Shown: positions 1 to 16,949 of the stretch, in pieces
Layout: each line of letters begins with the position of its first letter
Numbering within the stretch: position 1 is the stretch's first letter
Source of the DNA: a virus
IMG/VR virus record: IMGVR_UViG_3300031669_000236
Span: 1 to 23,608 of that record
Length of the DNA stretch: 23,608 bases
Reading direction: 5' to 3' (one strand)
Translations under genes and position numbers: made by a program
Notes under the pieces: model-generated
What the model saw: the letters and a program-made list of their open reading frames with translations, nothing else
What the model was told of the DNA's origin: nothing
Databases searched by the model: none

Positions 1-101
1 CTAACGTAAAGTTGAGCGCCGGGGAACGGCGCGAGGAGAAACCATGATCGAAGCTAAAAACGACCCCGCCGTTACCCGTGCGCTCGAACGCCGGGTTAGA
101 G
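1..101 (+). other. attC site 1 (left end cut by the window), long form with embedded mini-ORF
   Basis: The site starts inside R'' (CTAAC) and ends with R' GTTAGAG at 95-101. L'' is GTTGAGC and L' is GCTCGAAC, which pair except for one extra G, as in canonical attC sites. The variable middle is long. It contains a GCGCCG/CGGCGC hairpin and a strong AGGAG followed by ATG at 44. Crossover is expected between G95 and T96. Confidence 0.85.
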
Positions 102-112
102 GTTGGCTATGA
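44..112 (+). CDS. 22-residue leader ORF inside attC site 1
   Basis: AGGAG at 34-38 lies five bases before ATG 44. The frame encodes 22 residues (MIEAKNDPAVTRALERR onward). It reads through L' and R' of the attC site and stops with TGA at 110-112, overlapping the ATG (109) of the first cassette gene in an ATGA arrangement. This is the classic layout for translational coupling. The first bases (ATGATCGAAGCTA, then AACGACC) closely resemble the start of the ORF in the other long attC site (ATGAACGAAGCTA, then AACGACC at 1483). I infer a translation leader carried by the recombination site; the peptide itself may have no function. It is very short, so coding status is uncertain. Confidence 0.45.
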   Translation: MIEAKNDPAVTRALERRVRGWL

Positions 113-300
113 TCGTAGCTCGTGGGATACATCAAGGCGGGATGCAGGTCGGGTATGCGGGAACGCCATCGCAAGCGGTGCATCAACAAAAGCAAGACGT
201 GGAAGGCGCGGTGTTGGCGCAACGCTGGAACTTTGAGCGGGCGGAGGAAGAAACCCAAAAAGCGATTAAGCGCATGATGGGAACGACCTCTAACGTGTAG
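109..300 (+). CDS. cassette 1 protein, 63 residues, unknown function
   Basis: Start ATG at 109 is preceded by AGAGG (98-102), which overlaps the R' end of attC site 1, so the recombination site supplies the ribosome binding site. An in-frame TTG at 103 has no better support. The product is small and soluble, with a glycine-rich first third (GIHQGGMQVGYAGTP) and a charged, probably helical second half (FERAEEETQKAIKRMM). There is no signal peptide or membrane segment. The stop TAG lies inside the next attC site, giving the C-terminal Asn-Val shared by many genes of this array. I do not recognise the family. It is the sole gene of its cassette and may also be translated by coupling from the 44-112 mini-ORF. 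Confidence 0.6.
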   Translation: MIVARGIHQGGMQVGYAGTPSQAVHQQKQDVEGAVLAQRWNFERAEEETQKAIKRMMGTTSNV

Positions 301-350
301 TTGAGGGGCGCGACGCTTTACCAGCGTCCCGCTCGAACGTAAAGTTAGGT
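288..350 (+). other. attC site 2
   Basis: R'' CTCTAAC (288-294), L'' GTTGAGG, stem GACGCT/AGCGTC, L' CTCGAAC with an extra G, and R' GTTAGGT (344-350). Its body is nearly identical to sites 7 and 9. R'' complements the first bases of the preceding cassette (TTAGAG at 96), as expected for cassette 1's own site. Confidence 0.9.
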
Positions 351-351
351 T

Positions 352-506
352 GCTGAAATGAGTAGATCGAGTTGGACGGGCAGCACAATTTTAATTGTGT
401 CGGCAGTACCCGCAGGGCCATCTTAAATGATGGTGCGAGAGCTGGAATGCCAGAGGTGCGAATCCTCTCTAGCGCAAGGTTCGGACTTCTTCTACTCATC
501 TGAGCA
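352..506 (+). ncRNA. cassette 2: gene-poor, structured cassette, candidate RNA
   Basis: This cassette (345-564) has no ORF like its neighbours but is dense in complementary segments. They are a closing pair ATGAGTAGA (358-366) with TCTACTCAT (491-499), CACAAT/ATTGTG (384-399), CCATC/GATGG around 419-433, CTGG/CCAG (442-453), and AGAGG-TGCGAAT-CCTCT (452-468). The last resembles a tRNA T arm with G in place of the second T. I could not fold the whole into a tRNA, and it matches no RNA family I recognise. Alternative: one frame reads ATG 358 to TAA 426 (22 residues), then ATG 427 to TGA 519 (30 residues with a CQRC motif, ending Pro-Asn-Val). This could be a small zinc-protein gene broken by one in-frame stop. 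Strand is assigned from the array direction only. Confidence 0.4.
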
Positions 507-519
507 ACCTAACGTGTGA
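427..519 (+). CDS. possible 30-residue ORF in cassette 2 (or 3' part of a broken gene)
   Basis: ATG 427 (or 430) to TGA 517-519 encodes 30 residues beginning MMVRELECQRCESSLAQG. It contains a Cys-x2-Cys pair and ends Pro-Asn-Val, like the real genes of this array, with the stop inside attC site 3. There is no clear Shine-Dalgarno site. The same frame is open upstream from ATG 358 to a TAA at 424-426 directly before this ATG, so a single stop separates two halves of what would be a 53-codon gene. The region is also rich in inverted repeats, so coding status is doubtful. Confidence 0.25.
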   Translation: MMVRELECQRCESSLAQGSDFFYSSEQPNV

Positions 520-570
520 GGTAAGGGGTCACGCGCTTCTAGCGGCTCCCGCTTCACCGATGGGTTGGGC
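507..570 (+). other. attC site 3
   Basis: R'' ACCTAAC (507-513) sits in a 10-base match GCAACCTAAC (504-513) to the complement of the cassette 2 start (GTTAGGTTGC). R' is GTTGGGC (564-570). L'' (GGTAAG) and L' (CTTCACC) pair with one extra base. Confidence 0.87.
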
Positions 571-585
571 AACGAAAGGATTAAA

Positions 586-939
586 ATGAACGGAACTGTA
601 ACATCAATTGATTATGCGTTATCTATAATTCGCAATCCATACGGATTTGACGAAGATACGCAACGATGGGCACGATTAAAAATCGCTGATGCGTATGAGG
701 AACTTGTAAAAACTTCATCACTTGAAATTGAAAAATTGTGCGATGAAATTAAAAAGCGTGATAAGTGCGCTTTCATAGGGGCAATGCGAGATTGTCCTAC
801 ACACGGGGAAAGCGCAGAAATAAAGAGACTGCAAAAACTTGCAACATGTGAATGTGGCGATGAGTTTACAGAGCATGATCCAGGAACTTGCGCAAATTGT
901 TTAATTCCGCCCAACGTAGAGTTAACCGGCTCGCTTTAG
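586..939 (+). CDS. cassette 3 protein, 117 residues, Cys-rich C-terminal half
   Basis: ATG 586 follows AAAGGA with good spacing. The frame is also open from a TTG at 565, but that is simply the first base of the cassette. The N-terminal half is helical and charged (IADAYEELVKTSSLEIEKLCDEIKK region). The C-terminal half carries Cys-x-Cys (CECGDEF) and Cys-x2-Cys (CANC) plus further Cys and His, which suggests a small zinc-binding module. The stop TAG falls in the loop of attC site 4, adding a short tail (NVELTGSL) encoded by the recombination site. This is the largest protein of the array. I do not recognise the family; a small phage or host regulatory zinc protein is possible. Confidence 0.75.
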   Translation: MNGTVTSIDYALSIIRNPYGFDEDTQRWARLKIADAYEELVKTSSLEIEKLCDEIKKRDKCAFIGAMRDCPTHGESAEIKRLQKLATCECGDEFTEHDPGTCANCLIPPNVELTGSL

Positions 940-967
940 CGAGTCCGAGTTGAACGCCGGGTTGGGC
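909..967 (+). other. attC site 4
   Basis: R'' GCCCAAC (909-915) and R' GTTGGGC (961-967). The central stem GGCTCGC-TTTA-GCGAGTCC and the L' GTTGAAC make it nearly identical to site 8. R'' complements the TTGGGC start of cassette 3. The stop codon of the cassette gene lies in the hairpin loop. Confidence 0.9.
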
Positions 968-999
968 TGAAACGTAACTACGAAGAAAGGAAGCATAGC

Positions 1000-1224
1000 A
1001 TGAGTAAAATTTCCGAGATGATGGACTATTTAGCTGCCGCAACAGATGAAAATGGTAGCCCTGTTTTACAACATGAATATGACAGGTTGAAGGCTTTTGA
1101 ACAGATGATATTAGAAGCTAAACCTGCCGCATGGATGAATGTGGATAAACATGGCGGTGCTATGTTTTTTCGTTCTCCAAACACAATGAACGCCGTGCCA
1201 TTAATTGTAGTGCCCAACGTGTGA
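1000..1224 (+). CDS. cassette 4 protein, 74 residues, small phage-type protein
   Basis: ATG 1000 is preceded by GAAAGGAAGC, a good ribosome binding site. The product has a helical N-terminus (MSKISEMMDYLAAATDENG), then a Pro-Ala-Ala-Trp-Met segment followed by GGAMFF and a hydrophobic end (VPLIVVPNV). Small early proteins of enterobacterial and other phages often carry a P-x-A-W-x core followed by a Gly-rich turn and an xPLx end, so I infer relation to that poorly characterised group. The function is unknown. The C-terminal Asn-Val and the TGA stop come from attC site 5. Confidence 0.72.
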   Translation: MSKISEMMDYLAAATDENGSPVLQHEYDRLKAFEQMILEAKPAAWMNVDKHGGAMFFRSPNTMNAVPLIVVPNV

Positions 1225-1269
1225 ATTAAGGCGCGCCGATAGGCGTCGCGCTTGAATGATGGGTTAGGC
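1212..1269 (+). other. attC site 5
   Basis: R'' GCCCAAC (1212-1218) and R' GTTAGGC (1263-1269). The body has GCGCG-type pairing (GGCGCGCC with GGCGTCGCGC), and an extra base in L' (CTTGAAT). R'' matches the start of cassette 4. Confidence 0.86.
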
Positions 1270-1302
1270 ACTCACCCTTGACGAGTGCGCAGGAGAAAAA
1301 AC

Positions 1303-1449
1303 ATGGGATTCAGCCTTAAACAAATGATTGCCGACCTTGAGCAAATTATCGCGCTCGAAACAAACCCAACTGGCATTTTGCCAGAACTCACCGAGCGACT
1401 GGCTTGGTGGAAAAATTACGCAAAAGAATGTGGGCAACTGAGGGCCTAA
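1303..1449 (+). CDS. cassette 5 protein, 48 residues, unknown
   Basis: Strong site GCAGGAG at 1289-1295 precedes ATG 1303. The product is 48 residues (MGFSLKQMIADLEQIIALE onward), predicted mostly helical, with a Trp-Trp pair and one Cys near the end. It has no signal peptide or membrane segment. It stops with TAA (1447-1449), formed by the R'' sequence GCCTAAC of attC site 6, so the recombination site supplies the stop codon. The gene fills its cassette apart from the attC site and a short leader. I do not recognise a family. Length, ribosome site and position argue that it is real. Confidence 0.68.
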   Translation: MGFSLKQMIADLEQIIALETNPTGILPELTERLAWWKNYAKECGQLRA

Positions 1450-1566
1450 CGTGATAGGTGAGGCGCTGCCAACCGCAAAAGGATGAACGAAGCTATGAAC
1501 GACCAGACACAGATGCAGGATGAACGAAGCGCTTCAGGGCAGTCGCTCTCGACCGCCGGGTTGGGG
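1444..1566 (+). other. attC site 6, long form (123 bp) with embedded ORF start
   Basis: R'' GCCTAAC (1444-1450) and R' GTTGGGG (1560-1566). The arms GGTGAGGCGCTGCC (1457-1470) and GGCAGTCGCTCTCGACC near 1538-1554 pair with a few unpaired bases. The variable middle holds ATG codons at 1483 and 1495 in a sequence resembling the mini-ORF of attC site 1. Unlike site 1, the frame runs unbroken through R' into the next cassette gene. Confidence 0.8.
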
Positions 1567-1779
1567 GACGGATGGATAAGTTTAGCGGAACGGCTGCCAA
1601 CCGAAAGAGTGGACATGCTTGTGGCAACAAGACATGGGTGGGAGAAGGCAAGCGTGATCGCCCCTGTGCTAGTTACAGATGGGACTCTGATCGTGGAAGG
1701 CATTTTCAATGACATCGGCGAGGAATATTCCAGCGGAATTGATGCGACACACTGGAAGCCCAAGTCCCCCAACGTGTAG
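1483..1779 (+). CDS. cassette 6 DUF551-domain protein
   Basis: The product is a DUF551 protein, a small family common in phages and prophages and of unknown role. The family pattern is visible: GWISLAERLPTERVDMLV at the domain start, a variable middle, and ATHWKPKSP near the end. The domain itself begins at about residue 30 (base 1570). The preceding 26 residues are encoded by the attC site: ATG 1483 or 1495 lies in its variable loop, after AAAGG at 1478-1482. If translation starts there, the protein is a fusion of an attC-encoded leader to the cassette domain. The only in-frame alternative before the domain is TTG 1561, the first base of the cassette, which has no good ribosome site. It stops in attC site 7. 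A second DUF551 protein is encoded in the early operon at 7631. Confidence 0.8.
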   Translation: MNEAMNDQTQMQDERSASGQSLSTAGLGDGWISLAERLPTERVDMLVATRHGWEKASVIAPVLVTDGTLIVEGIFNDIGEEYSSGIDATHWKPKSPNV

Positions 1780-1829
1780 TTGAGGGGCGCGACGCTTCAC
1801 CAGCGTCCCGCTCGAACGGAAAGTTAGGC
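1767..1829 (+). other. attC site 7
   Basis: R'' CCCCAAC (1767-1773) and R' GTTAGGC (1823-1829). The body is nearly identical to sites 2 and 9. The 10 bases GTCCCCCAAC complement the start of cassette 6 (GTTGGGGGAC). Confidence 0.9.
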
Positions 1830-1853
1830 TGATTTTTAAAAGAGAGGTGCGTG

Positions 1854-2048
1854 ATGATTTGTAGTACATGTGGAGGAATCGTAATTTGGAAAGGCCCGTT
1901 CAGCGCATTGACACACACAGAATGCCAGCAGTGCGGTGCAATAAATAATCAAGTGGTAGCAGAGCCTAATTGTGAATATTGCGATGGAACTGGCGATGTT
2001 CATAGGGCTGATGGAGAATATCTTGGAAAGTGTGATTGTGGAGCCTAA
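1854..2048 (+). CDS. cassette 7 zinc-ribbon protein, 64 residues
   Basis: AGAGAGG (1841-1847) precedes ATG 1854 by six bases; the GTG at 1851 is a poorer choice. The product carries four cysteine clusters: CSTC, CQQC, CEYC and CDC. The last two sit in a CEYCDGTGDVHRADGEYLG segment typical of small phage-encoded zinc proteins. It probably binds two zinc ions and folds as a small zinc-ribbon or DnaJ-like zinc domain. The target is unknown; protein or nucleic-acid binding is plausible. The stop TAA is formed by R'' GCCTAAC of attC site 8. Confidence 0.8.
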   Translation: MICSTCGGIVIWKGPFSALTHTECQQCGAINNQVVAEPNCEYCDGTGDVHRADGEYLGKCDCGA

Positions 2049-2101
2049 CGTAAAGTTAACCGGCTCGCTTTAGCGAGTCCGAGTTGAACGCCGGGTTGTG
2101 C
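2043..2101 (+). other. attC site 8
   Basis: R'' GCCTAAC (2043-2049) and R' GTTGTGC (2095-2101). The body, with hairpin GGCTCGC-TTTA-GCGAGTCC, differs from site 4 by only one or two bases. Confidence 0.9.
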
Positions 2102-2126
2102 GTCAACTTTCAACGGAGATATTAAC

Positions 2127-2390
2127 ATGGAAGAAAAATGTTTTAAAAATATAGTGGAACGATGCAGGTATATGGCGCAAGTGGCTAAAAGTGAAGTGAT
2201 GAGAAATTCATTTACCGCAGCGGCAGATGAAATAGAACGATTGATGAATGTAAACCATATCGAGCATAACCTCGTAATGGTTACCGAGCGTCTTGCATGT
2301 GCTGATAGAGCAGACGCAGAGTTAGAAGATAACGGTGCGAATATTCGTGATGCAGTACGAGATGCAATTATGATGACGCACAACGTGTAG
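2127..2390 (+). CDS. cassette 8 protein, 87 residues, helical, unknown
   Basis: GGAGA (2115-2119) precedes ATG 2127. The protein is predicted almost wholly helical (MEEKCFKNIVERCRYMAQVA; FTAAADEIERLMNV), with acidic and basic residues spaced as in a helical bundle or coiled coil. It has three Cys but no zinc motif, and no membrane segment. It ends His-Asn-Val with the TAG inside attC site 9. I do not recognise the family. Size and helical character resemble many phage early proteins that bind host factors, but that is only a guess. Confidence 0.75.
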   Translation: MEEKCFKNIVERCRYMAQVAKSEVMRNSFTAAADEIERLMNVNHIEHNLVMVTERLACADRADAELEDNGANIRDAVRDAIMMTHNV

Positions 2391-2440
2391 TTGAGGGGCG
2401 CGACGCTTCACCAGCGTCCCGCTCGAACGGAAAGTTAGCC
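2378..2440 (+). other. attC site 9
   Basis: R'' GCACAAC (2378-2384) and R' GTTAGCC (2434-2440). The body is nearly identical to sites 2 and 7. GACGCACAAC matches the complement of the cassette 8 start over 10 bases. Confidence 0.9.
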
Positions 2441-2456
2441 ACCAGATCGGAGAAAT

Positions 2457-2699
2457 ATGAGTACAGATTGCCAAAAAGAAAACAACAATGGTCGCTGCTG
2501 CTGCAATTGCGCATGGCATATTGAAGATTTTCACCACTGCACAACAGCGTGGGAGTTACGTAAAGAAAAGCATGGATGCGTATGCCAAGAACATAAAGGA
2601 TGGATTTGCATGCCTCCAGAGTTTGATGGAGCCGCATATTCGGGATGGGTAGAACATAGTTTGTGTGAGTGCCACGAATTTAAGGCGGCTAACGTGTAG
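2457..2699 (+). CDS. cassette 9 cysteine-rich protein, 80 residues
   Basis: CGGAGAA directly upstream of ATG 2457 is a good ribosome site. The product has eleven Cys and seven His, including CCCNCAWH, HHC, CVCQEH and CECHEF. A small multi-zinc or metal-binding fold is likely. The order C-x2-C, H-x-C, C-x-C, C-x-C does not match a family I can name with confidence. Trp residues next to Cys (CAWH, GWIC) suggest a compact structured core. The stop lies in attC site 10, giving the Ala-Asn-Val end. Its role is unknown. Confidence 0.75.
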   Translation: MSTDCQKENNNGRCCCNCAWHIEDFHHCTTAWELRKEKHGCVCQEHKGWICMPPEFDGAAYSGWVEHSLCECHEFKAANV

Positions 2700-2749
2700 T
2701 TGAGGCGCGCCGCGCTTTTGCGGCGTCGCTCTCGAACGTAAGGTTAGAG
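2687..2749 (+). other. attC site 10
   Basis: R'' GGCTAAC (2687-2693) and R' GTTAGAG (2743-2749). L'' GTTGAGG and L' CTCGAAC have the extra base; the stem is GCCGCG/CGGCGT-like around a CTTTTG loop. R'' complements the cassette 9 start. Confidence 0.9.
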
Positions 2750-2770
2750 CGCATTTTATTGGAGGAAAGC

Positions 2771-2977
2771 ATGAGCTTTGCAGACTGGAAAAAACGAAGC
2801 AAGTTGTACCAAACATTCAAGAGCCGCGCGGAGCGTTTCGGTATTGGATACGATGAAGTTGCACAGGCCGCATACAAGGCAGGCGAACGCGATGGGCGCA
2901 AGCAGGCCGAAGCGGTTGCAGTGCAGGCGATAAAGCTGCGCGAACTCATGCGCTCTAACTTAATGTTAGACACCTAA
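2771..2977 (+). CDS. cassette 10 protein, 68 residues, helical, unknown
   Basis: TTGGAGGAAAGC gives a strong ribosome site (GGAGG 2761-2765) before ATG 2771. The product is basic and helical: SFADWKKRSKLYQTFKSRAE, then GIGYDEVAQAAYKAGERDG, then a long Ala- and charge-rich helix. It has no Cys and no membrane segment. The pattern xxxAYKAGxxDG resembles repeats in short phage proteins of unknown role. The stop TAA is in the loop of the divergent terminal attC site, so the last residues (SNLMLDT) come from that site. This is the final cassette before the phage regulatory region. Confidence 0.75.
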   Translation: MSFADWKKRSKLYQTFKSRAERFGIGYDEVAQAAYKAGERDGRKQAEAVAVQAIKLRELMRSNLMLDT

Positions 2978-3001
2978 ATCGGTGTATAACTCAATTTAAA
3001 G
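2953..3001 (+). other. attC site 11, divergent terminal site
   Basis: R'' CTCTAAC (2953-2959) matches the cassette 10 start over 12 bases (ATGCGCTCTAAC). The arms GTTAGACACC and GGTGTATAAC pair with one mismatch or unpaired base. The body is shorter and AT-richer than the other ten. The position expected for R' reads TTTAAAG (2995-3001) instead of GTTRRRY, so this looks like the junction between the last cassette and the phage backbone. Confidence 0.72.
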
Positions 3002-3047
3002 GCATAATTACACCTATTTTAAATAAATTCGAGCTTCGAAAGAGGCT

Positions 3048-3121
3048 CAACAATGATCTGCATTATTCCACTGGTTTTCTGGTGGTAATCGACTTGCAAG
3101 TAGTAGTGCAGATCATTGTTG
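3048..3121. repeat. 15-bp perfect inverted repeat enclosing 44 bases
   Basis: CAACAATGATCTGCA (3048-3062) is exactly complementary to TGCAGATCATTGTTG (3107-3121). Between them lie smaller pairs: CCAC/GTGG around a 10-base loop, and the palindrome ACTTGCAAGT. As RNA this would be a stem with two side hairpins; as DNA it could form a cruciform or be a two-site operator. Intrinsic terminator features are absent because no T run follows. Confidence 0.6.
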
Positions 3122-3141
3122 GTAGTTGTGTATCGCTATAG

Positions 3142-3241
3142 GACGCTATGGCTACTCGGGCGGCATATCCGGTGCCCGTCCTGAAATAAACAGCAAGGGA
3201 TTAAGCAAGGAATCGAACCTTAAGGATTAAATGTTTACGAA
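3142..3241. other. non-coding stretch with a GC-rich hairpin and a tRNA T-arm-like segment
   Basis: No credible gene lies between 2978 and 3440. CGGGC/GCCCG forms a hairpin near 3158-3180. On the minus strand, 3206-3222 reads AAGG-TTCGATT-CCTT, a textbook tRNA T stem and loop, but no matching acceptor or anticodon arm follows. It may be the 3' part of a tRNA gene retained in a phage attachment site, or chance. A GGATTAA repeat flanks it (3199 and 3224). Confidence 0.3.
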
Positions 3242-3262
3242 CTTGAAGTATATTAAGGCTAA

Positions 3263-3298
3263 AACATAGTTGACACACACGGCAATAACATAGTTGAC
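3263..3298 (+). promoter_or_regulatory. tandem 12-bp direct repeat, probable operator over the -35 box
   Basis: AACATAGTTGAC occurs at 3263-3274 and again at 3287-3298, 24 bases apart. The second copy contains the -35 element of the promoter at 3294. Such paired direct repeats at a promoter usually bind a regulator; which one is not shown by the sequence. Confidence 0.5.
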
Positions 3299-3322
3299 GA
3301 TAACTAAACGATGTAGGATAAT
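3294..3322 (+). promoter_or_regulatory. sigma70-type promoter upstream of the rha leader
   Basis: TTGACG (3294-3299), 17-base spacer, GATAAT (3317-3322). Transcription would start near 3329 and give a leader of about 110 bases before the rha gene. Confidence 0.75.
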
Positions 3323-3352
3323 ACAACTTGGCTTGGTCGCCAATTAACAGCG

Positions 3353-3431
3353 GGGCTACACATACATCCTGGCGGCGCTGTCCGTTCGACCAACACCGAA
3401 AGGTGAGGATGTATCTGTAGCCCTTTTTTTT
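3353..3431 (+). terminator. branched terminator or attenuator directly before rha
   Basis: GGGCTACA (3353-3360) pairs with TGTAGCCC (3416-3423). After one C/C mismatch, ATACATCC (3362-3369) pairs with GGATGTAT (3407-3414). Eight T follow (3424-3431). Inside the stem lie CACC-GAAA-GGTG (3394-3405), a GNRA-loop hairpin, and TGG/CCA pairing, giving a three-way junction. The ribosome site GGGG of rha starts at 3432, immediately after the T run. The promoter at 3294 could therefore make either a roughly 100-base small RNA or, on readthrough, the rha operon message. I infer attenuation or a small-RNA gene. Confidence 0.65.
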
Positions 3432-3440
3432 GGGGTAAAT

Positions 3441-4112
3441 ATGTATCCAGTTTTAAGCGAAGTAAAAACAATGTCAAGCCGTGAAATTGCAGTAATTGCA
3501 GAAACTTCACATGACAGTGTATTAAAAACTATTCGGGAATTAATCAAACGAGGTATCGTTTCTGGGAACGAGACCACATACAAGCATATCCAGAATGGTC
3601 AAGTTTATCCTGAATTTTTGCTTACATTCAGAGATACAATGGTTGTTGTAGCAGGGTATAGCGCCGAAATGCGCGCAAAAATAATCGACCGCTGGCAAGA
3701 ACTCGAAGCAAAGCAGCAATTCAACATCCCTACTACCCTATCAGGCGCACTACGATTGGCCGCAGAGCAAGCGGAAACAATCGAAGCTCAAACCCTACTC
3801 ATTGAGCAACAAAAGCCCGCCGTCGAGTTTATGGAGCGTTATGTTGACTCATCCGGCAGCAAAGTATTCCGTGACGTTTGCAAACTACTCAAAGTCAAAG
3901 AGCCAGAATTCCGCGAATTCCTGATTGACAAAAAAATCATGTATCGACTTGATGGAAAGCTGACGCCATATGGAAATCACCTAGACGCCGGCCGGTTTGA
4001 AGTCAAAGCCGGTATTAGCGAAAACGAGCATGCTTACAATCAGGCCAAGTTTACACCTAAAGGAATTCAGTGGGTAGCCGGGCTTTGGATGGTTGAAAAA
4101 CTTAAGGCCTGA
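3441..4112 (+). CDS. Rha/KilAC phage regulatory protein (antirepressor type), 223 residues
   Basis: Residues 11-95 match the Rha family of phage regulators: MSSREIAVIAETSHDSVLKT, a helix-turn-helix-like start, then YPEFLLTFRDTMVVVAGYS. Residues 120-220 match the KilAC (ANT) domain found in P1/P22-type antirepressors: KPAVEFMERYVDSSGSKVF, VCKLLKVKEPEFREFLIDKK, YRLDGKLTPY. Such proteins bind DNA or repressors and influence the lysis-lysogeny choice or early gene expression. Start ATG 3441 has GGGG five bases upstream; M11 lacks a ribosome site. It is the first gene of the early operon and lies directly behind a branched terminator, so its expression is probably controlled by readthrough. The replication gene follows one base after its stop. 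Confidence 0.88.
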   Translation: MYPVLSEVKTMSSREIAVIAETSHDSVLKTIRELIKRGIVSGNETTYKHIQNGQVYPEFLLTFRDTMVVVAGYSAEMRAKIIDRWQELEAKQQFNIPTTLSGALRLAAEQAETIEAQTLLIEQQKPAVEFMERYVDSSGSKVFRDVCKLLKVKEPEFREFLIDKKIMYRLDGKLTPYGNHLDAGRFEVKAGISENEHAYNQAKFTPKGIQWVAGLWMVEKLKA

Positions 4113-4113
4113 T

Positions 4114-4941
4114 ATGCATTATTACCAGTTCAATATTGGAAACTACCGAAGGCGCACAGGGCATTTAACCATGTTAGAACATGGAGCATACCGTGCGCTA
4201 CTTGATACCTACTATCTTGAAGAAAAGCCACTATGCGCAGACGATGCTCAGCTTATGCGTTCGCATTGCGCTCGCACTACGGATGAACAGCAGGCGCTTA
4301 AAAATGTACTTCGTGATTTTTTTGAGCTACGTGAAGATGGGTATTTTCACAAAGACGTAGAGGAAAAACTTGTTAATTATCGGAAAAAGTCCGAGAAAGC
4401 AAGCCTTTCAGCCAAGTCAAGATGGGAGAAAGATGCGAACGCAATGCGAACGCATAGCGATGGCAATGCTAACCATAAACCAATAACCAATAACCAAGAA
4501 CCAATAACCACTAACCATAAAGAATCAAAACCATTGTCGGGCAAACCCGACGAGTCAGCGCCCAAAACTTCAAAACCTAAAACCAACGGCGCAGAAACAT
4601 CCGAGGTTATTTCATATCTCAACGAAAAGGCGGGAACAAACTTCCATCTAGTCGAGGCGAACACGAAGTTGGTCGCGGCACGGTTGAGGGAAGGCGCAAC
4701 ACTTGCGGAGATTAAGCGGGTTATTGATTTCAAGGTAAGCGAGTGGAGCGCAGATTCAAAAATGCGTGATTATCTGCGACCTGCAACACTGTTCAATGCT
4801 GAGAAGTTCGCGCAGTACGCCGGACAGGTTGCAGTGGTAGCGGTTTCTGTCGCTCTAGTCTGCCCAACAGGATACCCATTCAGCCAGTGGAAAGCCTCCA
4901 GCCCAGCAGAGCGTGCCGAGATTATCAGGAGGCAGGCATGA
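4114..4941 (+). CDS. phage replication initiation protein (DUF1376 plus phage C-terminal domain), 275 residues
   Basis: The N-terminal residues 1-90 (MHYYQFNIGNYRRRTGHLTM, ALLDTYYLEEKPL, DGYFHKDVEEKL) are DUF1376, also called YdaU-like. Residues 165-240 (ISYLNEKAGTNFHLVEANTK, IKRVIDFKVSEW, MRDYLRPATLFNAEKF) are the conserved phage replication C-terminal domain. The family is taken to recognise the phage origin and recruit the helicase, like lambda O. A low-complexity linker (residues 118-140, PITNNQEPITTNH) is encoded by AT-rich repeats that may be the origin itself. ATG 4114 follows AAGG with seven-base spacing; the in-frame TTG 4093 lies inside rha. The end overlaps the next start by ATGA. 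Confidence 0.87.
   Translation: MHYYQFNIGNYRRRTGHLTMLEHGAYRALLDTYYLEEKPLCADDAQLMRSHCARTTDEQQALKNVLRDFFELREDGYFHKDVEEKLVNYRKKSEKASLSAKSRWEKDANAMRTHSDGNANHKPITNNQEPITTNHKESKPLSGKPDESAPKTSKPKTNGAETSEVISYLNEKAGTNFHLVEANTKLVAARLREGATLAEIKRVIDFKVSEWSADSKMRDYLRPATLFNAEKFAQYAGQVAVVAVSVALVCPTGYPFSQWKASSPAERAEIIRRQA
4470..4520 (+). repeat. AT-rich AACCATAA/AACCAATA repeats, candidate replication origin
   Basis: Within the replication gene, AACCATAA, ACCAATA, ACCAATA, ACCAAGA, ACCAATA, ACCACTA and AACCATAA follow one another at roughly 7-base intervals. A repeat tract in the linker of an initiator gene recalls the lambda origin inside gene O. It could equally be codon repetition in a flexible linker. 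Confidence 0.42.
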
Positions 4942-5363
4942 GTAACAAACTGGATAACTTCGTTTCACGGCTACAGAAAGCAAAGCGCACCGGAACAGAT
5001 TCATGGATAGCCTGCTGCCCCGCACACGATGACAAAAGCCCGTCAATGACGATCAGGGAAGTGGACGAAGGAAAAATCCTTGTCCATTGCTTCGCTGAGT
5101 GTTCAGTTGAAAACATTGTTGGTGCGCTTGGATTGTCACTGAGCGACCTGATGCCAGACCGTGCACCGGACGAAGTGCGTAAGCCCAGGAGGATGCCATT
5201 CAACGCCGCAGACGTGTTGGCCTGCTCAAAGTCGGATGCCTCGCTGATCTACGTTGTGATGTGCGACATCGACAAGGGCGTGCAGCTAACGCAGGAACAG
5301 ATCACCAGCGCGAAGAAAGCCGCTGGGCGCATCTACTCAGCCGCACAGATGGGAGGCCAGTAA
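4938..5363 (+). CDS. CHC2 zinc-finger primase-like protein without a Toprim domain, 141 residues
   Basis: WIACCPAHDDKSPSMTIRE and ILVHCFAECSVENIVGAL show the CHC2 zinc-binding module of DnaG-type and phage primases: Cys27, His30, Cys51 and Cys55. In phages this module reads template trinucleotides for primer synthesis. The catalytic Toprim domain is missing; the rest (residues 75-141) is short and has no primase signature. It may act as a DNA-binding partner for the helicase, with host primase or another phage protein providing catalysis. Start ATG 4938 has AGGAGG five bases upstream and overlaps the previous stop. The next gene also overlaps its stop, so the three replication genes are coupled. 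Confidence 0.85.
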   Translation: MSNKLDNFVSRLQKAKRTGTDSWIACCPAHDDKSPSMTIREVDEGKILVHCFAECSVENIVGALGLSLSDLMPDRAPDEVRKPRRMPFNAADVLACSKSDASLIYVVMCDIDKGVQLTQEQITSAKKAAGRIYSAAQMGGQ

Positions 5364-6298
5364 TGGGCAGCGCAGATCGTGGCAGAGAGCAGATTGAAGA
5401 GGCGATGATGAATTTCTCAAACATCATCCCGCCAGAAATAGACCTGACCGACTTCATGCGCGACGAAGAAAAGGTGCGGGTGCGTGATGCAAGCCATTTC
5501 AAGCAGATGGTGCGCGACATGATGGAGGGAAAAACAGACAAGGGTTACGCCCTGCCGTTTGCGCCCTTTCACGGCAACTTCGAGTTTCGCCCGTCTGAAA
5601 TGACGGTGTGGGCTGGGTATAAGGGGCATGGCAAATCAAGCCTTATTTCGCAAGTGCTGCAAAGCATGATTACGGAATACGCGCACAAGGTTTTCATTAT
5701 TTCGCCTGAGTTCCCAGCGCATAAGGTGATTCATAAACTCATGGTTCAGTTTCTGGGTTCGCGTTATCCAGAAGAGAGAGATTTTAATTCCTTCTTCGAA
5801 GTGATGAGCAAATGCCTATGGCTGTATGACCAGCAGCGCAGCGTTAAGCCTGACACGGTGATCGCGCTATGCCGCTTTGCGATTGAGAAGCTTGGCGTTA
5901 AACACATCCTGATTGACTCGCTGATGAAGTGCGGCATTGCTCCCGATGATTACGGCAAACAGAAAGACTTTGTGGATCGCCTGCAAAACGTGGCGCACAT
6001 CACAGATGTTCATATTCACCTCGTAGCCCATGCACGCAAAGGCCGTGACGATAGCGTTATAGGTTCCATCCATGACATTAAGGGCGCGTCTGAGATTGGC
6101 GACATGGTGGAAAACGTGATCTTTACTTGGCGCAATAAGGCCAAGGAGTTAAAGCCTGGTGATGCTGAGTTGGGGCATGAGCCTGACGCAATAATGAAAG
6201 TTGAGGCGCAGCGCAACGGTGATGGATGGATAGGCGAAGTAAACCTGAATTACGACCGCAACAAAATGGTTTTCTTTGATTGGAAAGAGGGGATATAA
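5363..6298 (+). CDS. DnaB-like replicative helicase, ATPase domain only, 311 residues
   Basis: It has a RecA-fold ATPase of the DnaB/Twinkle/T7 gp4 class: Walker A GYKGHGKSS (residues 85-93), Walker B HILIDS (181-186), a following VHIHLVAHARK strand (216-226), and IKGASEIGDMVENVIFTWRN, which corresponds to the DnaB arginine-finger and loop region. The DnaB N-terminal domain is absent; about 60 residues precede the ATPase core. It should unwind DNA 5' to 3' as a hexameric ring at phage forks. ATG 5363 overlaps the previous TAA and has GGGAGG upstream; the frame is open further upstream, but only as a shadow of the CHC2 gene. Confidence 0.9.
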   Translation: MGSADRGREQIEEAMMNFSNIIPPEIDLTDFMRDEEKVRVRDASHFKQMVRDMMEGKTDKGYALPFAPFHGNFEFRPSEMTVWAGYKGHGKSSLISQVLQSMITEYAHKVFIISPEFPAHKVIHKLMVQFLGSRYPEERDFNSFFEVMSKCLWLYDQQRSVKPDTVIALCRFAIEKLGVKHILIDSLMKCGIAPDDYGKQKDFVDRLQNVAHITDVHIHLVAHARKGRDDSVIGSIHDIKGASEIGDMVENVIFTWRNKAKELKPGDAELGHEPDAIMKVEAQRNGDGWIGEVNLNYDRNKMVFFDWKEGI

Positions 6299-6301
6299 AA
6301 A

Positions 6302-6472
6302 ATGACAGCTAAAGAACTGAAACAGCTAATCGAAGATCAACAGTTTATCCGTCAATGGTTGACGCGCATCAAAGAAACGGACGATCAGATCATTAACGAA
6401 GTTATGGACTTGATGCGTACAACAGAGGGATACCGTGAATTTATTGTCGGCTATGCGAGGGGGCAAGCATGA
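6302..6472 (+). CDS. small unknown early protein, 56 residues
   Basis: ATG 6302 lies behind AGAGGGGAT, three bases after the helicase stop. The gene ends with TGA overlapping the next ATG (ATGA at 6469). The product (MTAKELKQLIEDQQFIRQWL onward) is helical and charged and has no recognised domain. Tight packing on both sides and a good ribosome site support it as a real gene. Confidence 0.7.
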   Translation: MTAKELKQLIEDQQFIRQWLTRIKETDDQIINEVMDLMRTTEGYREFIVGYARGQA

Positions 6473-6753
6473 AACAACTATCCGCCCACAAACAAACCAG
6501 CGCCAAAATCCGCGAACTGTTCACCGCTGGAAAGACGAAGCAGGAAATAAAGCTTGAGCTTGGCGTAACCGGACGTAGGGTAAACAGCGCACTTGACTAC
6601 ATGCTGAGAAAAGAAAAAGCAGCACGTAATCCATGTGTAAAACAATCAAGTGCACCCGTAGTACCGTATGCCGAGCGTGATGCGCAGATGCGCGAATTTT
6701 ACAGCTCACTCAACACCAAGGGCGCATTGTCGATGTGCCACGTAAATTTTTGA
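6469..6753 (+). CDS. small helix-turn-helix-like protein, 94 residues
   Basis: Residues 10-48 (SAKIRELFTAGKTKQEIKLE, then LGVTGRRVNSALDYML) look like a helix-turn-helix of the kind that reads resolvase- or sigma-like sites. A basic tail follows. It may be a phage transcription regulator. Ribosome site GAGGGGG precedes ATG 6469, overlapping the previous stop. The C-terminal 30 residues are not conserved in any family I recognise. Confidence 0.65.
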   Translation: MKQLSAHKQTSAKIRELFTAGKTKQEIKLELGVTGRRVNSALDYMLRKEKAARNPCVKQSSAPVVPYAERDAQMREFYSSLNTKGALSMCHVNF

Positions 6754-6779
6754 CAAAATCAACCAACCAAGGGGGAAGC

Positions 6780-7115
6780 ATGAGCGATAAATTCGAAATC
6801 CTAGCAAAACTACACGGCCTAGACGTGAACAAAAACGAGCACAACTACCTGAACCATACAACCGAAATGTGCCACGCATTTTACACGGCCAATCAATCTG
6901 AGAATTTGCAAATGTCAATCGACATTGCACAGGCAGCATGTTGTTTTGATGATCTGCAAAGCTCACCAATGAGCCGGGTTATCTGGCCAGATTCAATGGA
7001 TGGCGTTGTGGCTCATGTTGCCGTGCTGCACGATATTGCGATCAAGCTGGCTGGCGATCAGGTGGATGAGGTGTATAGCCCGGATGATGCGGAGAAAGAG
7101 GCGGTGGCGGTGTGA
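6780..7115 (+). CDS. unknown early protein, 111 residues
   Basis: GGGGGAAGC precedes ATG 6780. The open frame extends upstream from 6735, but that part overlaps the previous gene and lacks a ribosome site. The product is acidic and soluble (MSDKFEILAKLHGLDVNKNE onward; VDEVYSPDDAEKEAVAV at the end) with Cys pairs too dispersed for a zinc motif. No family recognised. Its stop overlaps a GTG start of the next small ORF. Confidence 0.68.
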   Translation: MSDKFEILAKLHGLDVNKNEHNYLNHTTEMCHAFYTANQSENLQMSIDIAQAACCFDDLQSSPMSRVIWPDSMDGVVAHVAVLHDIAIKLAGDQVDEVYSPDDAEKEAVAV

Positions 7116-7249
7116 GTATTATTCCTAAATTTATTTCCGCGCTGCGTAAATTGGCTTCGCTGTGTATGTATTGGTCACAACGTTGCAATCAGCAAAAAAG
7201 CTCAAAACATCCGATAGCCTTTATGCAGAGCAGGGGGTTTTTATTATGA
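7112..7249 (+). CDS. small basic protein with GTG start, 45 residues
   Basis: GTG 7112 overlaps the TGA of the previous gene (GTGA), and its own TGA (7247-7249) overlaps the ATG of ninB (ATGA). This double overlap is typical of coupled phage genes and makes the ORF credible despite its length. The product (MSIIPKFISALRKLASLCMY onward) starts with an amphipathic, possibly membrane-associating helix and is basic. No family recognised. Confidence 0.5.
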   Translation: MSIIPKFISALRKLASLCMYWSQRCNQQKSSKHPIAFMQSRGFLL

Positions 7250-7638
7250 AAGATGGAGAATGGAAAGACAGTGGTGACGGGAAGGCTACTCGCGTCCAGC
7301 TCAATCTTTTTAATGCTGCATGTGGAGACTTATCTAGCCAAATTAGATGGCACGGATTCAGATTAAGTCGCGATGATTGGCGGCATATGTTAAGCGGCAC
7401 GGTTCTGGGTTGGAGAATGATGCCCGCTGTAGATCGTGGAGAAGGTGCGGCAGGTTTAATTATGCTGGGCGGCAGTAGTCTGGATTTAAGCAAGGATCAA
7501 TGCACAGACGCGATTACACAGGCTTTTTTGATTGGGGATGATCCAAGTACACAAGGGTTGAAATCGCAGCCTGTGAGGTGGTGCCGCAGTGTCATTGGAG
7601 CGCGGTGGATAACTGACGAGGTGATAAATCATGAATAA
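7246..7638 (+). CDS. ninB: NinB recombination protein, 130 residues
   Basis: It matches the NinB (Orf) family, which aids lambda Red recombination by binding single-stranded DNA and replacing RecFOR functions. Visible family segments are LSSQIRWHGFRLSRDDWRHM, then MMPAVDRGEGAAGLIMLGGS, the SLDLSKDQCTDAITQAFLIG helix, and RWCRSVIGARW near the end. Length is a little below lambda NinB (146). ATG 7246 has AGGGGG nine bases upstream and is coupled to the 45-residue ORF. A GTG at 7162 would add 28 residues but has no ribosome site. The N-terminus is the least certain part. Confidence 0.82.
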   Translation: MKDGEWKDSGDGKATRVQLNLFNAACGDLSSQIRWHGFRLSRDDWRHMLSGTVLGWRMMPAVDRGEGAAGLIMLGGSSLDLSKDQCTDAITQAFLIGDDPSTQGLKSQPVRWCRSVIGARWITDEVINHE

Positions 7639-7873
7639 GAACGAATGGCAACCGATTGAAACCGCGCCGAAGGATCAAAGAATTATTCTCTGTTATGAAA
7701 CGTGCATTTTTACAAATATATTTTCAGCGTGCGGGAAATGGAACGATGACCAATATTCAAACAACCCAAAGCCATACTGGACTCACGACATGGAGAAAAT
7801 ACTTGGGGTACGTGAAACACGAGGACAACAACCTATTGCATGGATGCCACTACCGGAAGCGCCAACAAAATGA
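7631..7873 (+). CDS. DUF551-domain protein, 80 residues
   Basis: EWQPIETAPKDQRIILCYET at the start and PIAWMPLPEAP at the end are the two conserved parts of DUF551, a small phage/prophage family of unknown function. Ribosome site GAGGTGAT precedes ATG 7631, which overlaps the end of ninB. The next gene overlaps its stop. A second family member sits in cassette 6 at 1483, with different sequence, so the two are not recent copies. Confidence 0.85.
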   Translation: MNKNEWQPIETAPKDQRIILCYETCIFTNIFSACGKWNDDQYSNNPKPYWTHDMEKILGVRETRGQQPIAWMPLPEAPTK

Positions 7874-8190
7874 GCAACCCTACAAAATCAGACAAGCAAT
7901 ACTGGATCGCCCTTGCTGAAACAATTGGCTGTATCGCGTGCCGCATTGATGGTCATCACAATCCGGTAGTAAGCATCCATCACTGCGATGGTCGCACCAA
8001 GCCAGGAGCGCATCGGAAAGTATTGCCACTATGCGCAGAGCATCACCAGACAGGCGGGCAGGATGCGCCGAGTATTCACCCTTGGAAATCTAGATTTGAG
8101 GCGAAATATGGCACTCAGGAATATCTGATGGATAAATGCAATGAGCTGCTGAAATCTGCCAGCTGCAAATTTGAAAGAATGTTTTCATGA
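7870..8190 (+). CDS. Ref-like HNH nuclease (RecA-dependent nuclease family), 106 residues
   Basis: It resembles the phage P1 Ref family: a CIAC pair (residues 21-24), SIHHCDGRTKPGAHRKVLPL (35-54), CAEHHQTGG (55-63) and HPWKSRFEAKYGTQEYL (70-86). The two zinc-like Cys clusters and the HH/HH pairs form the metal-binding HNH core. P1 Ref cuts DNA within RecA-made displacement loops; here a role in recombination together with NinB is plausible. ATG 7870 overlaps the previous stop. The P1 N-terminal extension is absent, as in most short phage members. Confidence 0.82.
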   Translation: MSNPTKSDKQYWIALAETIGCIACRIDGHHNPVVSIHHCDGRTKPGAHRKVLPLCAEHHQTGGQDAPSIHPWKSRFEAKYGTQEYLMDKCNELLKSASCKFERMFS

Positions 8191-8513
8191 GTAAATACGG
8201 TGCCAAAAAGACCACAATCGACGGGATTACTTTTTCGAGTAAAGCTGAGGCTAACCGATACCTGCAACTCATCATGCTGGGTAAGGCGAAAAAGATAACC
8301 GAATTGCAGCTACAGGTTAAATACGAACTCGCTCCGTCCGTGGTGATACAAGGCCGCAAGCGACCGCCTATCCGTTACGTAGCTGACTTCGTGTATATGC
8401 AGGATGGGAAACGGGTCACAGAGGATGTAAAGGGCATGGAAACTCCTGTGTACCGGCTGAAGCGGCACTTGATGGCAACTGTACACGGGATTGAAATATT
8501 GGAGACAAGATGA
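8187..8513 (+). CDS. DUF1064 phage nuclease (PD-(D/E)xK type), 108 residues
   Basis: DUF1064 signatures are clear: KYGAKKTTIDGITFSSKAEA (3-22), PIRYVADFVY (61-70), EDVKGMET (79-86). The residues E21, D67 and D80-V-K82 form the PD-(D/E)xK-type active site related to T7 endonuclease I. It probably resolves branched DNA made during phage replication and recombination. Start ATG overlaps the end of the Ref-like gene, and its stop overlaps the next ATG. The set NinB, Ref-like, DUF1064 is a recombination cluster. Confidence 0.86.
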   Translation: MSKYGAKKTTIDGITFSSKAEANRYLQLIMLGKAKKITELQLQVKYELAPSVVIQGRKRPPIRYVADFVYMQDGKRVTEDVKGMETPVYRLKRHLMATVHGIEILETR

Positions 8514-9960: not shown

Positions 9961-10425
9961 ATGAGCGCGTTAATATCTTTTCTGGGTGGTTCAGTTTTCC
10001 GCATGGTCTGGGGCGAGGTATCGGCCTACATGACCAAAAAGCAGGATCACGAACACGAAATAGAGCGCATGAAGTTACAGGGCGAGGAAGATGCAGCGCA
10101 GCACGCACGCAACCTTGAATCCATTACGGTGCAGGCTGGACTCGGGGTTAAAACAATTCAGGTGCAATCTGACGCCATTACTAGCCAGCTTGAAACCGGT
10201 GCCTGGGCGCAAGCCGTGACCGACGTCGGCAAACAAACCGGCATCAAGCTAATAGATATCTGGAATGGCGCAATCCGCCCATGGCTGGCAACAGTGGCCA
10301 CTGTGATGGTAATAGTTCAGTTCGTCCAGCACGGCTTTGTCATGACCGATTGGGATAGGGAGCTGGTCGGGGCAATCCTCGGCATCTATGTTGCAGATCG
10401 CTCATTGAAGCACAGGGGCAAGTAA
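9961..10425 (+). CDS. holin-like membrane protein (GTA/3TM holin type), 154 residues
   Basis: The C-terminal 50 residues hold two hydrophobic segments (WLATVATVMVIVQF; ELVGAILGIYVADRSL), preceded by the IWNGAIRPW motif often seen in phage holins of the 3TM/GTA type. The N-terminus has a weakly hydrophobic first helix (SALISFLGGSVFRMVWGEVS), then a charged coiled-coil spacer. It would form the inner-membrane hole for release of the lysozyme encoded next. AAGGGGG precedes ATG 9961. Its stop overlaps the lysozyme start. Confidence 0.72.
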   Translation: MSALISFLGGSVFRMVWGEVSAYMTKKQDHEHEIERMKLQGEEDAAQHARNLESITVQAGLGVKTIQVQSDAITSQLETGAWAQAVTDVGKQTGIKLIDIWNGAIRPWLATVATVMVIVQFVQHGFVMTDWDRELVGAILGIYVADRSLKHRGK

Positions 10426-10898
10426 TGAATGTGAGCCTTGCAATCGAAGTTGCTGCTGCGCTATGCCGCCGCTTCGAAGGCTTTTATTCAACCCCATATT
10501 TGTGTCCTGCCGGAGTTCCGACTATCGGCTATGGGGCAACTTTTTACCCTGACGGACGCGCCGTACAATTAACAGATCAACCAATCACCCGCCAGCAAGC
10601 CGAAGATATGCTGCTCTGGATGATCCGCACAAAATACCTCCCCGCTGTACTCAAGCTCTGCCCTAACATCGACAATCCTGATCGGCTGGCGGCAATTATC
10701 GACTTCACCTTCAACCTCGGCAGCGGCAACCTGCGCATCAGCAACCTGCGCAGGCGCATTAATTCAGGTCGATGGGATGATGTGCCAGCGGAGCTGATGA
10801 AATGGGTTAAGGGTGGCGGAAAAGTTTTAAGCGGGCTAGTTAAACGAAGAGCTGCCGAAGCATATTTGTGTCTAAATGCCTGCACGGAGCGTAAGTAA
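10425..10898 (+). CDS. phage lysozyme (GH24, T4/P22 type endolysin), 157 residues
   Basis: [20 protein letters not shown] is the active-site loop of the GH24 muramidases. Catalytic Glu18, then position 27, then Thr33 have exactly the 9 and 6 spacing of T4 lysozyme E11-D20-T26, but position 27 is Cys instead of Asp. Cys here is known in some phage lysozymes and in active T4 mutants. Later [40 protein letters not shown] confirm the family. There is no cleavable signal peptide, so release depends on the holin-like protein. Its end overlaps the next gene. Confidence 0.9.
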
Positions 10899-11251
10899 TG
10901 CCGCACGAGGATAACGAATTGATCGCATATCGCCTAAGCAATCTCGAACGGATTACAGCAGACATGGCGATCGCGGTTAAAAGTATCGCTGAATCGTTGA
11001 CGACTCTGGCCAGACTGGAAGTAAAGCACGAGGAAACCCGAGAAGCGCTGGGCCGGGCATTTACTGAAATTGAAAAGAACAGAATTGAGCAGGCAGCGGT
11101 AAATAAGGACATTGAGACCCGCACCAGGAAGATTGAAGAGGATATGCCCGCATTGAAGATGACCAGTAGTTGGACGGTAACTGGCGCGCTCGGCATTGTG
11201 GCGATGGTCGGATTGGCCGTTGTAGCGCTGGTTATTCATAAAGGGGCTTAG
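10898..11251 (+). CDS. coiled-coil protein with C-terminal membrane anchor, 117 residues
   Basis: A long charged helix (residues 5-90) is followed by one hydrophobic segment ([20 protein letters not shown]) and a short HKGA tail. This is the layout of XhlA-like or Rz-like lysis accessory proteins, a coiled coil tethered to the inner membrane. With the holin-like and lysozyme genes it forms the lysis module. The exact role, holin helper or spanin part, cannot be decided. Start ATG overlaps the lysozyme stop. Confidence 0.6.
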
Positions 11252-11272
11252 TTATCGCGAATAGGTGATATT

Positions 11273-11359
11273 ATGGAAGCAATCGGCATAATGTTTGAAT
11301 GGATAGCCATAAGTTTAGCCGTATGGATAACAATTTTCTATTTTTGGATGAAAGGGTAA
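11273..11359 (+). CDS. 28-residue membrane peptide
   Basis: AGGTGAT precedes ATG 11273. The peptide (MEAIGIMFEWIAISLAVWIT, then IFYFWMKG) is one hydrophobic transmembrane helix rich in Trp and Ile, with a Lys at the end. Its place right after the lysis genes suggests a tiny holin, antiholin or pinholin-type accessory; this is inference. Confidence 0.55.
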   Translation: MEAIGIMFEWIAISLAVWITIFYFWMKG

Positions 11360-11362
11360 ATC

Positions 11363-11698
11363 ATGGACATGCCAGTACCTCAGCCGCAACAAATCCCTCA
11401 GCCACAAATGCAACCGCCCCAACCAGGGCCAAATATGCAGGCCACGACGGGGCAACAACCGCCACAACAACCAATGGGACAAGGCCCTTTAGGTTCAGGA
11501 ATGGCAAATAACGCCATGATGCTGACTAAATTCCGTGAGCCGTATATGCAAATGGCAACCCAGATGGCGATGGACGGTCAAGAACCACCTCCCTTTGAGC
11601 AATGGGTGCAAAGTCAAACACAACAACCGCAAGAACAAGCCCCGCAAGATCGTAGAGGGATGTTGACTCGTTTGATAAGTAGCTTAAAAGGTACTTAA
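11363..11698 (+). CDS. Pro/Gln-rich protein, 111 residues
   Basis: GAAAGGG precedes ATG 11363. The N-terminal half is a run of Pro and Gln (MPVPQPQQIPQPQMQPPQPG), the middle a Met-rich stretch, the end short and basic. It is probably disordered, perhaps a structural accessory or an internal virion protein. No family recognised. A second frame over the same stretch (11299-11511) is a shadow. Confidence 0.65.
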   Translation: MDMPVPQPQQIPQPQMQPPQPGPNMQATTGQQPPQQPMGQGPLGSGMANNAMMLTKFREPYMQMATQMAMDGQEPPPFEQWVQSQTQQPQEQAPQDRRGMLTRLISSLKGT

Positions 11699-11731
11699 TC
11701 ACTTAAATGGCGAGAATCACGCCTCCTATCA

Positions 11732-12181
11732 ATGGCCCTAACATCAAAACAAGAAAGATTCTCGCAAGAGGTTGCAAGCGGGAAGAATCAATCAGACGCT
11801 TATCGTGTAGCCTATGAGGTAAAGCCTGGCACAAAGCCTTCATCAGTAAACGTGAGTGCTGCAAAACTTATGGCAATGCCTAATATTGCACAAAGGGTGG
11901 CTGAGCTACGTAAACCAATAGTAGAAATTGTTCAAATCACGCTTGAAACACACCTAGCACGGCTTGAACATCTTGGGAAAATGGCGGAAGCTTCAGAGAA
12001 ATGGGACGCAGCTATAAAAGCTGAAATCGGCAGGGCAAAGGCCGCCGGTATTGTTACTGATAAAATCGAAGCGAAATTATCTGGAGGGTTAGAAATTGGA
12101 GTTTCTGCCCGTCCAAAGTTAACTAAAGAGGAATGGTTAAAACTACATGGTTTGGGAACCACAGGCAGGCCCACAGAGTAG
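11732..12181 (+). CDS. terminase small subunit, 149 residues
   Basis: LTSKQERFSQEVASGKNQSD, AYRVAYEVKPGT and VNVSAAKLMAMPNIAQRVAE are the classic Terminase_2 family features (helix-turn-helix for pac recognition). The C-terminal half is helical and charged and presumably contacts the large subunit. The ribosome site is weak. A mini-hairpin GGCG/CGCC lies just upstream (11709-11723). The large subunit gene overlaps its end by 35 bases, as usual for coupled terminase genes. Confidence 0.85.
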   Translation: MALTSKQERFSQEVASGKNQSDAYRVAYEVKPGTKPSSVNVSAAKLMAMPNIAQRVAELRKPIVEIVQITLETHLARLEHLGKMAEASEKWDAAIKAEIGRAKAAGIVTDKIEAKLSGGLEIGVSARPKLTKEEWLKLHGLGTTGRPTE

Positions 12182-13631: not shown

Positions 13632-13641
13632 CAAAAAATTG

Positions 13642-13704
13642 CATTTATTTGCACATTTATGCAAAATTAAGCATATAATCAGCTTAACTAGTTCGCCGTG
13701 AGGC
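13642..13704 (+). promoter_or_regulatory. probable promoter and hairpin before the structural genes
   Basis: TATAAT (13674-13679) is a perfect -10. The -35 is less clear (TTGCAC with 19-base spacing, or GCACAT at 17). Repeats TTGCA, TTGCA, TGCAA recur about every 11 bases upstream (13639-13665). The hairpin GCC-GTGA-GGC follows at 13695-13704 and recurs before the scaffold gene at 16927-16936. Confidence 0.5.
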
Positions 13705-13717
13705 AGAAGGGTGATTT

Positions 13718-14026: not shown

Positions 14027-14028
14027 TC

Positions 14029-16520: not shown

Positions 16521-16532
16521 AGGAGTAATATT

Positions 16533-16907: not shown

Positions 16908-16926
16908 TATTGAAATTAACTTAAAT

Positions 16927-16936
16927 GCCGTGAGGC
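16927..16936 (+). other. GCC-GTGA-GGC mini-hairpin before the scaffold gene
   Basis: The 10-mer GCCGTGAGGC is identical to that at 13695-13704. A GNRA-type loop on a three-base stem, 14 bases ahead of the ATG. Preceded by ACTTAAATG, also found before the small terminase gene at 11701. Confidence 0.4.
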
Positions 16937-16949
16937 TATTGGAGTAAAT

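Follow-up and report, generated by a model that had tools for sequence, protein, structure and literature searches.

How a phage comes to hold a string of small genes separated by integron recombination sites, and whether such genes are traded between phages, is the question raised by the first 2.97 kb of a viral contig of 23,608 bases, IMGVR_UViG_3300031669_000236, which is an entire IMG/VR record, classed as linear, and is referred to here in its full length as the window. A preliminary description had seen in this region an integron-like array of small accessory early genes, embedded in a phage genome beside its regulatory switch and open to shuffling at its attC sites. The array-bearing contig is a podovirus-like phage, with the hallmark genes for the large terminase subunit (TerL), portal, head and tail proteins. 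We consider it likely that the array is a phage-borne cluster of attC sites lacking an integrase (CALIN), the cassettes of which were moved by an integron integrase (IntI) supplied by the host or by another phage.

The recombination sites were modeled from an alignment of eight typical attC sites of the window, covering the R and L helices, and the resulting covariance model was used as a search query. When it was run on the full contig, as the preliminary description had proposed, it returned ten sites, all on the + strand and all within the first 2.75 kb (E-values from 1e-17 to 5e-3); the other 20.8 kb had no match. The sites at 1–101 and 1444–1566 are independent detections, since both lie outside the eight-site training set. 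Helix L is paired in 100% of the cells and shows compensatory changes in four of its pairs, and the L' box carries the extra unpaired base that is expected for attC, so that the window sites possess the integron-type R''/L''/L'/R' boxes as well as the unpaired base. Of the eleven sites in one orientation that had been described, ten are thus recovered, whereas the eleventh is a remnant at 2952–2971 which the covariance model does not match. When the sites were folded separately as single-stranded DNA, the outcome was mixed; the likely reason is that the R'' and R' of one arrayed site come from different cassettes. The sites are as follows:

1–101, + strand: attC site 1, 23.4 bits, E 0.005, outside the training set; the contig begins inside its R'' box.
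288–350, + strand: attC site 2, 81.7 bits, in the training set.
507–571, + strand: attC site 3, 67.8 bits, in the training set.
909–967, + strand: attC site 4, 65.2 bits, in the training set.
1212–1269, + strand: attC site 5, 60.4 bits, in the training set.
1444–1566, + strand: attC site 6, long, 31.8 bits, outside the training set; it holds the start codon (1483) of the cassette 6 open reading frame (ORF).
1767–1829, + strand: attC site 7, 83.6 bits, in the training set.
2043–2101, + strand: attC site 8, 60.3 bits, in the training set.
2378–2440, + strand: attC site 9, 79 bits, in the training set.
2687–2749, + strand: attC site 10, 75 bits, in the training set; matches a betaproteobacterial chromosomal attC with 95% identity over 58 bp.
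2952–2971, + strand: degenerate terminal site, with R'' GCTCTAAC, 5 bases and an R'-like GTTAGAC, and without body or L boxes.

A very similar long counterpart of attC site 1 occurs in another phage contig (G002). The long loop of site 1 in the window also holds a mini-ORF (44–112) with a Shine-Dalgarno sequence and ATG, whose stop codon overlaps the start codon of the cassette 1 ORF (ATGA, 109–112).

A circular integron cassette holds both halves of its own attC, and hence the bases at its start are expected to agree with those at its own end rather than with those at the end of the neighboring cassette. This own-end matching provides a test that is independent of the covariance model. In the window, the matching runs extend over 6–10 bases with a mean of 7.56, as against 2.89 for the end of the next cassette, and none of 10,000 shuffles reached this value. 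Among 75 cassettes of other phage contigs, the mean was 5.57 versus 3.10 in shuffles (maximum 3.75), and again 0 of 10,000 reached it. The earlier statement that the two ends of each cassette match each other is therefore borne out. As to the count of ten small-gene cassettes, nine are bounded by two full attC sites and the tenth, which ends at the remnant site, has matching ends, but cassette 2 lacks a convincing ORF. The cassettes are as follows:

96–344, + strand: cassette 1, ORF 109–300, own-end run of 8.
345–564, + strand: cassette 2, without a convincing ORF; structured RNA at 344–513, own-end run of 10.
565–961, + strand: cassette 3, ORF 586–939; starts with the leader TTGGGCAACGAAAGGATTAAAATG.
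962–1263, + strand: cassette 4, ORF 1000–1224, own-end run of 6.
1264–1560, + strand: cassette 5, ORF 1303–1449; homologue in phage G035.
1561–1823, + strand: cassette 6, ORF 1483–1779; DUF551 (PF04448), phrog_924.
1824–2095, + strand: cassette 7, ORF 1854–2048; Cys-rich small protein, with weak family matches only.
2096–2434, + strand: cassette 8, ORF 2127–2390, own-end run of 10.
2435–2743, + strand: cassette 9, ORF 2457–2699; homologue in phage G001.
2744–2958, + strand: cassette 10, ORF 2771–2977; ends matching over ~11 bases (inverted repeat I2).

A CALIN is recognized by at least two close attC sites and the absence of intI; the window has ten sites in 2.75 kb, and the intI model TIGR02249 has no match in the 23.6 kb record. 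The description of the locus as an integrase-less, integron-type array in phage DNA is accordingly upheld.

Pattern searches of IMG/VR yielded 34 further viral contigs with such attC sites, and their hallmark genes and completeness were examined because some of them could be misfiled bacterial DNA. Four of these contigs (G001, G008, G015 and G023) combine internal arrays with exact terminal repeats of 127 bp, the mark of a circular assembly, and in G001, G008 and G023, each a complete circular phage contig, phage genes flank the array on either side. Terminase is encoded by G008 and by seven other contigs (G003, G010, G013, G025, G026, G028 and G030), terminase and tail proteins by G023, and terminase and portal by G035; the phage nature of G015 is less certain, since its hallmark evidence is a weak head-decoration match only. 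In G001, TerL and portal lie toward opposite contig ends, in the same order as in the window, and the array, at approximately 10.3–18.5 kb, has replication/repressor genes on one side and an endonuclease VII gene on the other. Because the TerL families and portals differ among the carriers, the arrays are scattered over phage diversity. Their positions also vary, some being found between the replication and the lysis genes and others between the terminase and portal genes, so that the proposed placement of early genes next to a regulatory switch does not extend to a general rule. One array-bearing contig (G031, L266–L268) contains 17 tRNA genes.

Some phages carry their own integrase. In the contig G022, TerL is followed by five attC sites and a methyltransferase gene, after which come a full IntI (464.7 bits against a cut-off of 265) and the portal gene. 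With this IntI as query, 60 IMG/VR loci were found, and 45 of the 48 records tested scored above the IntI cut-off. Eight IntI records were fetched, seven of which have terminase homologues (G484, G487, G493, G512, G522, G524 and G531) and, in most cases, attC sites; the eighth (G501) has no phage hallmark and may be bacterial. The 36 kb phage contig G493 is circular, its terminal repeat measuring 127 bp, and contains IntI, attC, terminase and tail genes. G023, a terminase relative of G493, has arrays and no IntI match. A complete integron, comprising five attC sites and IntI, is located between phage terminase and portal genes at L275:6246–10377 (IMG/VR 3300009031_000034). Both in this phage integron and in bacterial genomes (G113:C1, G110:C11 and G117:C12), intI lies downstream of attC on the same strand. 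In class 1 integrons, intI is divergent from the cassettes.

The same type of attC is present in the chromosome of a betaproteobacterial metagenome-assembled genome (G004). Within the order to which this genome belongs, attC sites at E-values up to 0.001 were detected in 55 of 120 genomes, and intI above the curated cut-off in 49 of 120, often within a few kb of attC. When the window array was compared by blastn with 399 genomes of the order, matches were obtained in 57, nearly all of them attC stretches, with up to 95% identity; the cassette bodies, in the same 399 betaproteobacterial genomes, were unmatched apart from three short weak matches. The host is therefore probably betaproteobacterial and could supply IntI, the taxon being assigned from sequence identity and not from contrast with another bacterial group.

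Two of the window cassettes recur in unrelated phages. Cassette 9 has a homologue in the complete phage G001 with 84% nucleotide and 85% protein identity, the portal proteins of the two phages being 27% identical and their head proteins 36%; the left boundary of this match is less sharp because the attC before it in G001 has decayed to a half-site. Cassette 5 has a homologue in the unrelated phage G035 (86% nucleotide identity), and here the identity starts exactly after the G of G|TT and stops in the variable center of attC. A third cassette is common to G001 and G007. Exchange of cassettes between phages is supported by these sequence comparisons, and shuffling may be ongoing. Outside the array, a methyltransferase-like gene of the window (19603–20994) is 64% identical to its G001 counterpart, while portal and major head protein are ~30% identical.

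The products of the window cassettes are nearly all without known function, cassette 6 being a DUF551 protein of a family that is present in PHROGs. Among 61 cassette ORFs of array-bearing phages, DNA methyltransferases (G015, G007 and G024), a Mom-like DNA modification protein (G035) and an N4 gp49/Sf6 gene 66 protein were found, and the methyltransferase and Mom-like cassettes make counter-restriction a plausible theme of the cargo. Cassettes of unrelated phages also share two short leaders at their starts, each with a ribosome-binding site and followed by different ORFs; these leaders lie at 564–588 and 1263–1285 in the window, and also at L248, L270, L171 and L258. The leader of cassette 3, TTGGGCAACGAAAGGATTAAAATG, has a near-identical form in cassettes of other phages, and one of the leaders is essentially absent from the 399 betaproteobacterial genomes (a single match with three mismatches). 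Cassette 2 folds far more strongly than its shuffles over 344–513 (z = -5.5), and its predicted RNA adopts a strong rod-like fold closed by the cassette ends. A tRNA or known RNA was considered for it and rejected, as relaxed ARAGORN matches were chance-like, Rfam gave none at the gathering score and chance-level matches only at a permissive threshold, and the core pattern was absent from IMG/VR.

A mechanism may be proposed from these features, the general chemistry of integron recombination being established. Each unit would consist of a small phage gene joined to an attC of the betaproteobacterial chromosomal integron type. During infection, the bottom strand of attC would fold as single-stranded DNA, and IntI, provided in trans by an integron in the host chromosome or by an IntI-encoding phage infecting the same cell, would excise and insert cassettes at G|TT. 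The cassettes would then be expressed from phage promoters, and phages could in this way trade small accessory genes as ready-made cassettes, some of them probably counter-defence genes. In this scheme, we infer the identity of the host, the action of IntI in trans, the current mobility of the cassettes, the use of phage promoters for their transcription and the advantage that the phage gains.

Several observations weigh against such a system. Fifty related phage records, with terminases up to 82% identical, are without attC sites; the attC model had no match in these whole records, nor, at E-values up to 0.1, in ~1 Mb of phage loci related through Rha, a result that also speaks for the specificity of the model. 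As the Rha and TerL relatives in IMG/VR have no attC sites, the array is untraceable along its own phage lineage and the trait is gained and lost; with arrays carried by phages that have unrelated heads, the view of the array as a lineage trait is not sustained. Relatives were found for only two of the ten window cassettes in the sequences compared. In G001, three junctions are half-attC sites (L079:10265, 12773 and 16343), in which R'' and L'' are followed directly by the next gene. The near-identical phage pairs G012/G026 and G024/G028 have identical arrays, and no cassette present in one member and absent in the other was seen in the near-identical pairs examined. Finally, phage DNA is visible on one side of the window array only, as the contig starts within attC site 1; the statement that the array is embedded in a phage genome is accordingly confirmed for the right flank, but not for the left.

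A rival reading is an array that the phage captured once and that is now a fixed gene block, with attC sites that no longer recombine. The degenerate last site of the window together with the half-sites of G001, which look like decay of an array into fixed gene blocks, indicate that part of the arrays is decaying, and the identical arrays of near-identical pairs and the lack of intI in the window agree with such a fossil. We nevertheless regard it as unlikely, since ten sites retain intact R and L boxes together with a cassette-specific matching of ends, the cargo differs from bacterial cargo, and two cassettes recur in unrelated phages, one of them with identity from the crossover point. A junction between a prophage and a chromosomal integron, in which 1–2970 would be host DNA and only the remainder phage, has a parallel in Vibrio anguillarum, where attC sites flank the excision points of a prophage (Qi et al., PMC9892861). 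The position of the array at the contig end and the near identity of its sites to betaproteobacterial chromosomal attC are compatible with this, but such a junction is very improbable in view of the arrays enclosed by phage genes within complete circular contigs, the recurrence of two window cassettes in phages and the absence of cassette bodies from the 399 genomes of the order, as well as a base composition that is continuous over the array/phage junction. Misassembly of a bacterial cassette array onto a phage contig, of which repeated attC sites are a likely cause, can practically be dismissed, because the junction at 2970–3440 is not attC sequence and independent assemblies have the same kind of arrangement. 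A phage-borne CALIN with cassettes moved by IntI thus remains our preferred reading of the window.

Beyond the array, the phage backbone is arranged as follows:

3441–4112, + strand: Rha/antirepressor (PF09669 and PF03374, phrog_63), the first phage core gene past the array.
4114–8513, + strand: replication and recombination genes, namely primosomal protein, primase fragment, DnaB-like helicase, NinB, HNH and Holliday junction resolvase.
10425–22617, + strand: late block, namely endolysin, small terminase subunit (TerS), TerL, portal, major head protein and tail.

Between the array and rha (2970–3440), a long hairpin, two copies of the repeat ACATAGTTGAC and an attenuator-like hairpin followed by a T run are observed (3048–3121, 3264–3298 and 3353–3430). 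Promoter and terminator scans gave chance-level results only. A search for near DNA with the first 12 kb returned a sole match of 33 bp, and the array as nucleotide query had no match in phage and plasmid collections.

The preliminary description knew of nothing similar in phages, and in this respect it is not supported. Qi et al. (2023) reported 17 CALINs, three complete integrons and one In0 in 10,705 phage genomes, screening GenBank phage genomes only, and demonstrated that the attC sites are functional, with five of six attC sites from three phages recombining with attI1 (PMC9892861). Their phage CALINs (TJE1, PH101 and P12002L; PMC9892861) resemble the window in having attC clusters without intI and cassettes in one direction; they occur in temperate and virulent phages, with small unknown or methyltransferase genes as cargo, and TJE1 has three attC sites where the window has ten intact ones. 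Integrons of temperate phages (Vibrio anguillarum phage p16, a P1 isolate and Shewanella phage M16-3) carry intI and cassettes on phage DNA, that of p16 being a piece of the neighboring host integron and those of P1 class 1 integrons (PMC9892861). Among the contigs described here, by contrast, G022 has its intI between terminase and portal, and in G493 the gene is part of a circular phage contig; the window has none. Sedentary chromosomal integrons of betaproteobacteria, many of whose attC sites lie near intI, share attC sequence and structure with the window at up to 95% identity, but their cassette bodies differ and the window is phage DNA. In the open literature (subscription papers and preprints being mostly outside its scope), no integron survey of environmental viral contigs was found. 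Relative to Qi et al., the additions are the occurrence of the same cassettes in unrelated phages, near-betaproteobacterial attC sites with different cargo, shared leaders at cassette starts and arrays in many environmental phage contigs; new here, besides, are the large size of the array and the location of IntI in a phage structural module.

It is possible, and here we are tentative, that environmental phages of betaproteobacteria maintain a cassette economy of their own, in which accessory and counter-defence genes with phage-type leaders pass among unrelated phages by means of host IntI or of IntI encoded in phage structural modules. Phage genomes are mosaic, and illegitimate or homologous recombination is usually held responsible for the joining of small accessory genes. 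Where the attC sites of an array are intact, such genes could be joined site-specifically, with a defined crossover point. Since many unrelated phages carry arrays, and some have their own IntI, integrons probably serve phages, too, as a means of trading genes. If this is true, phages would be both carriers and users of integrons, and the integron activity of the host would be tied to the gene content of its phages, possibly including counter-defence genes.

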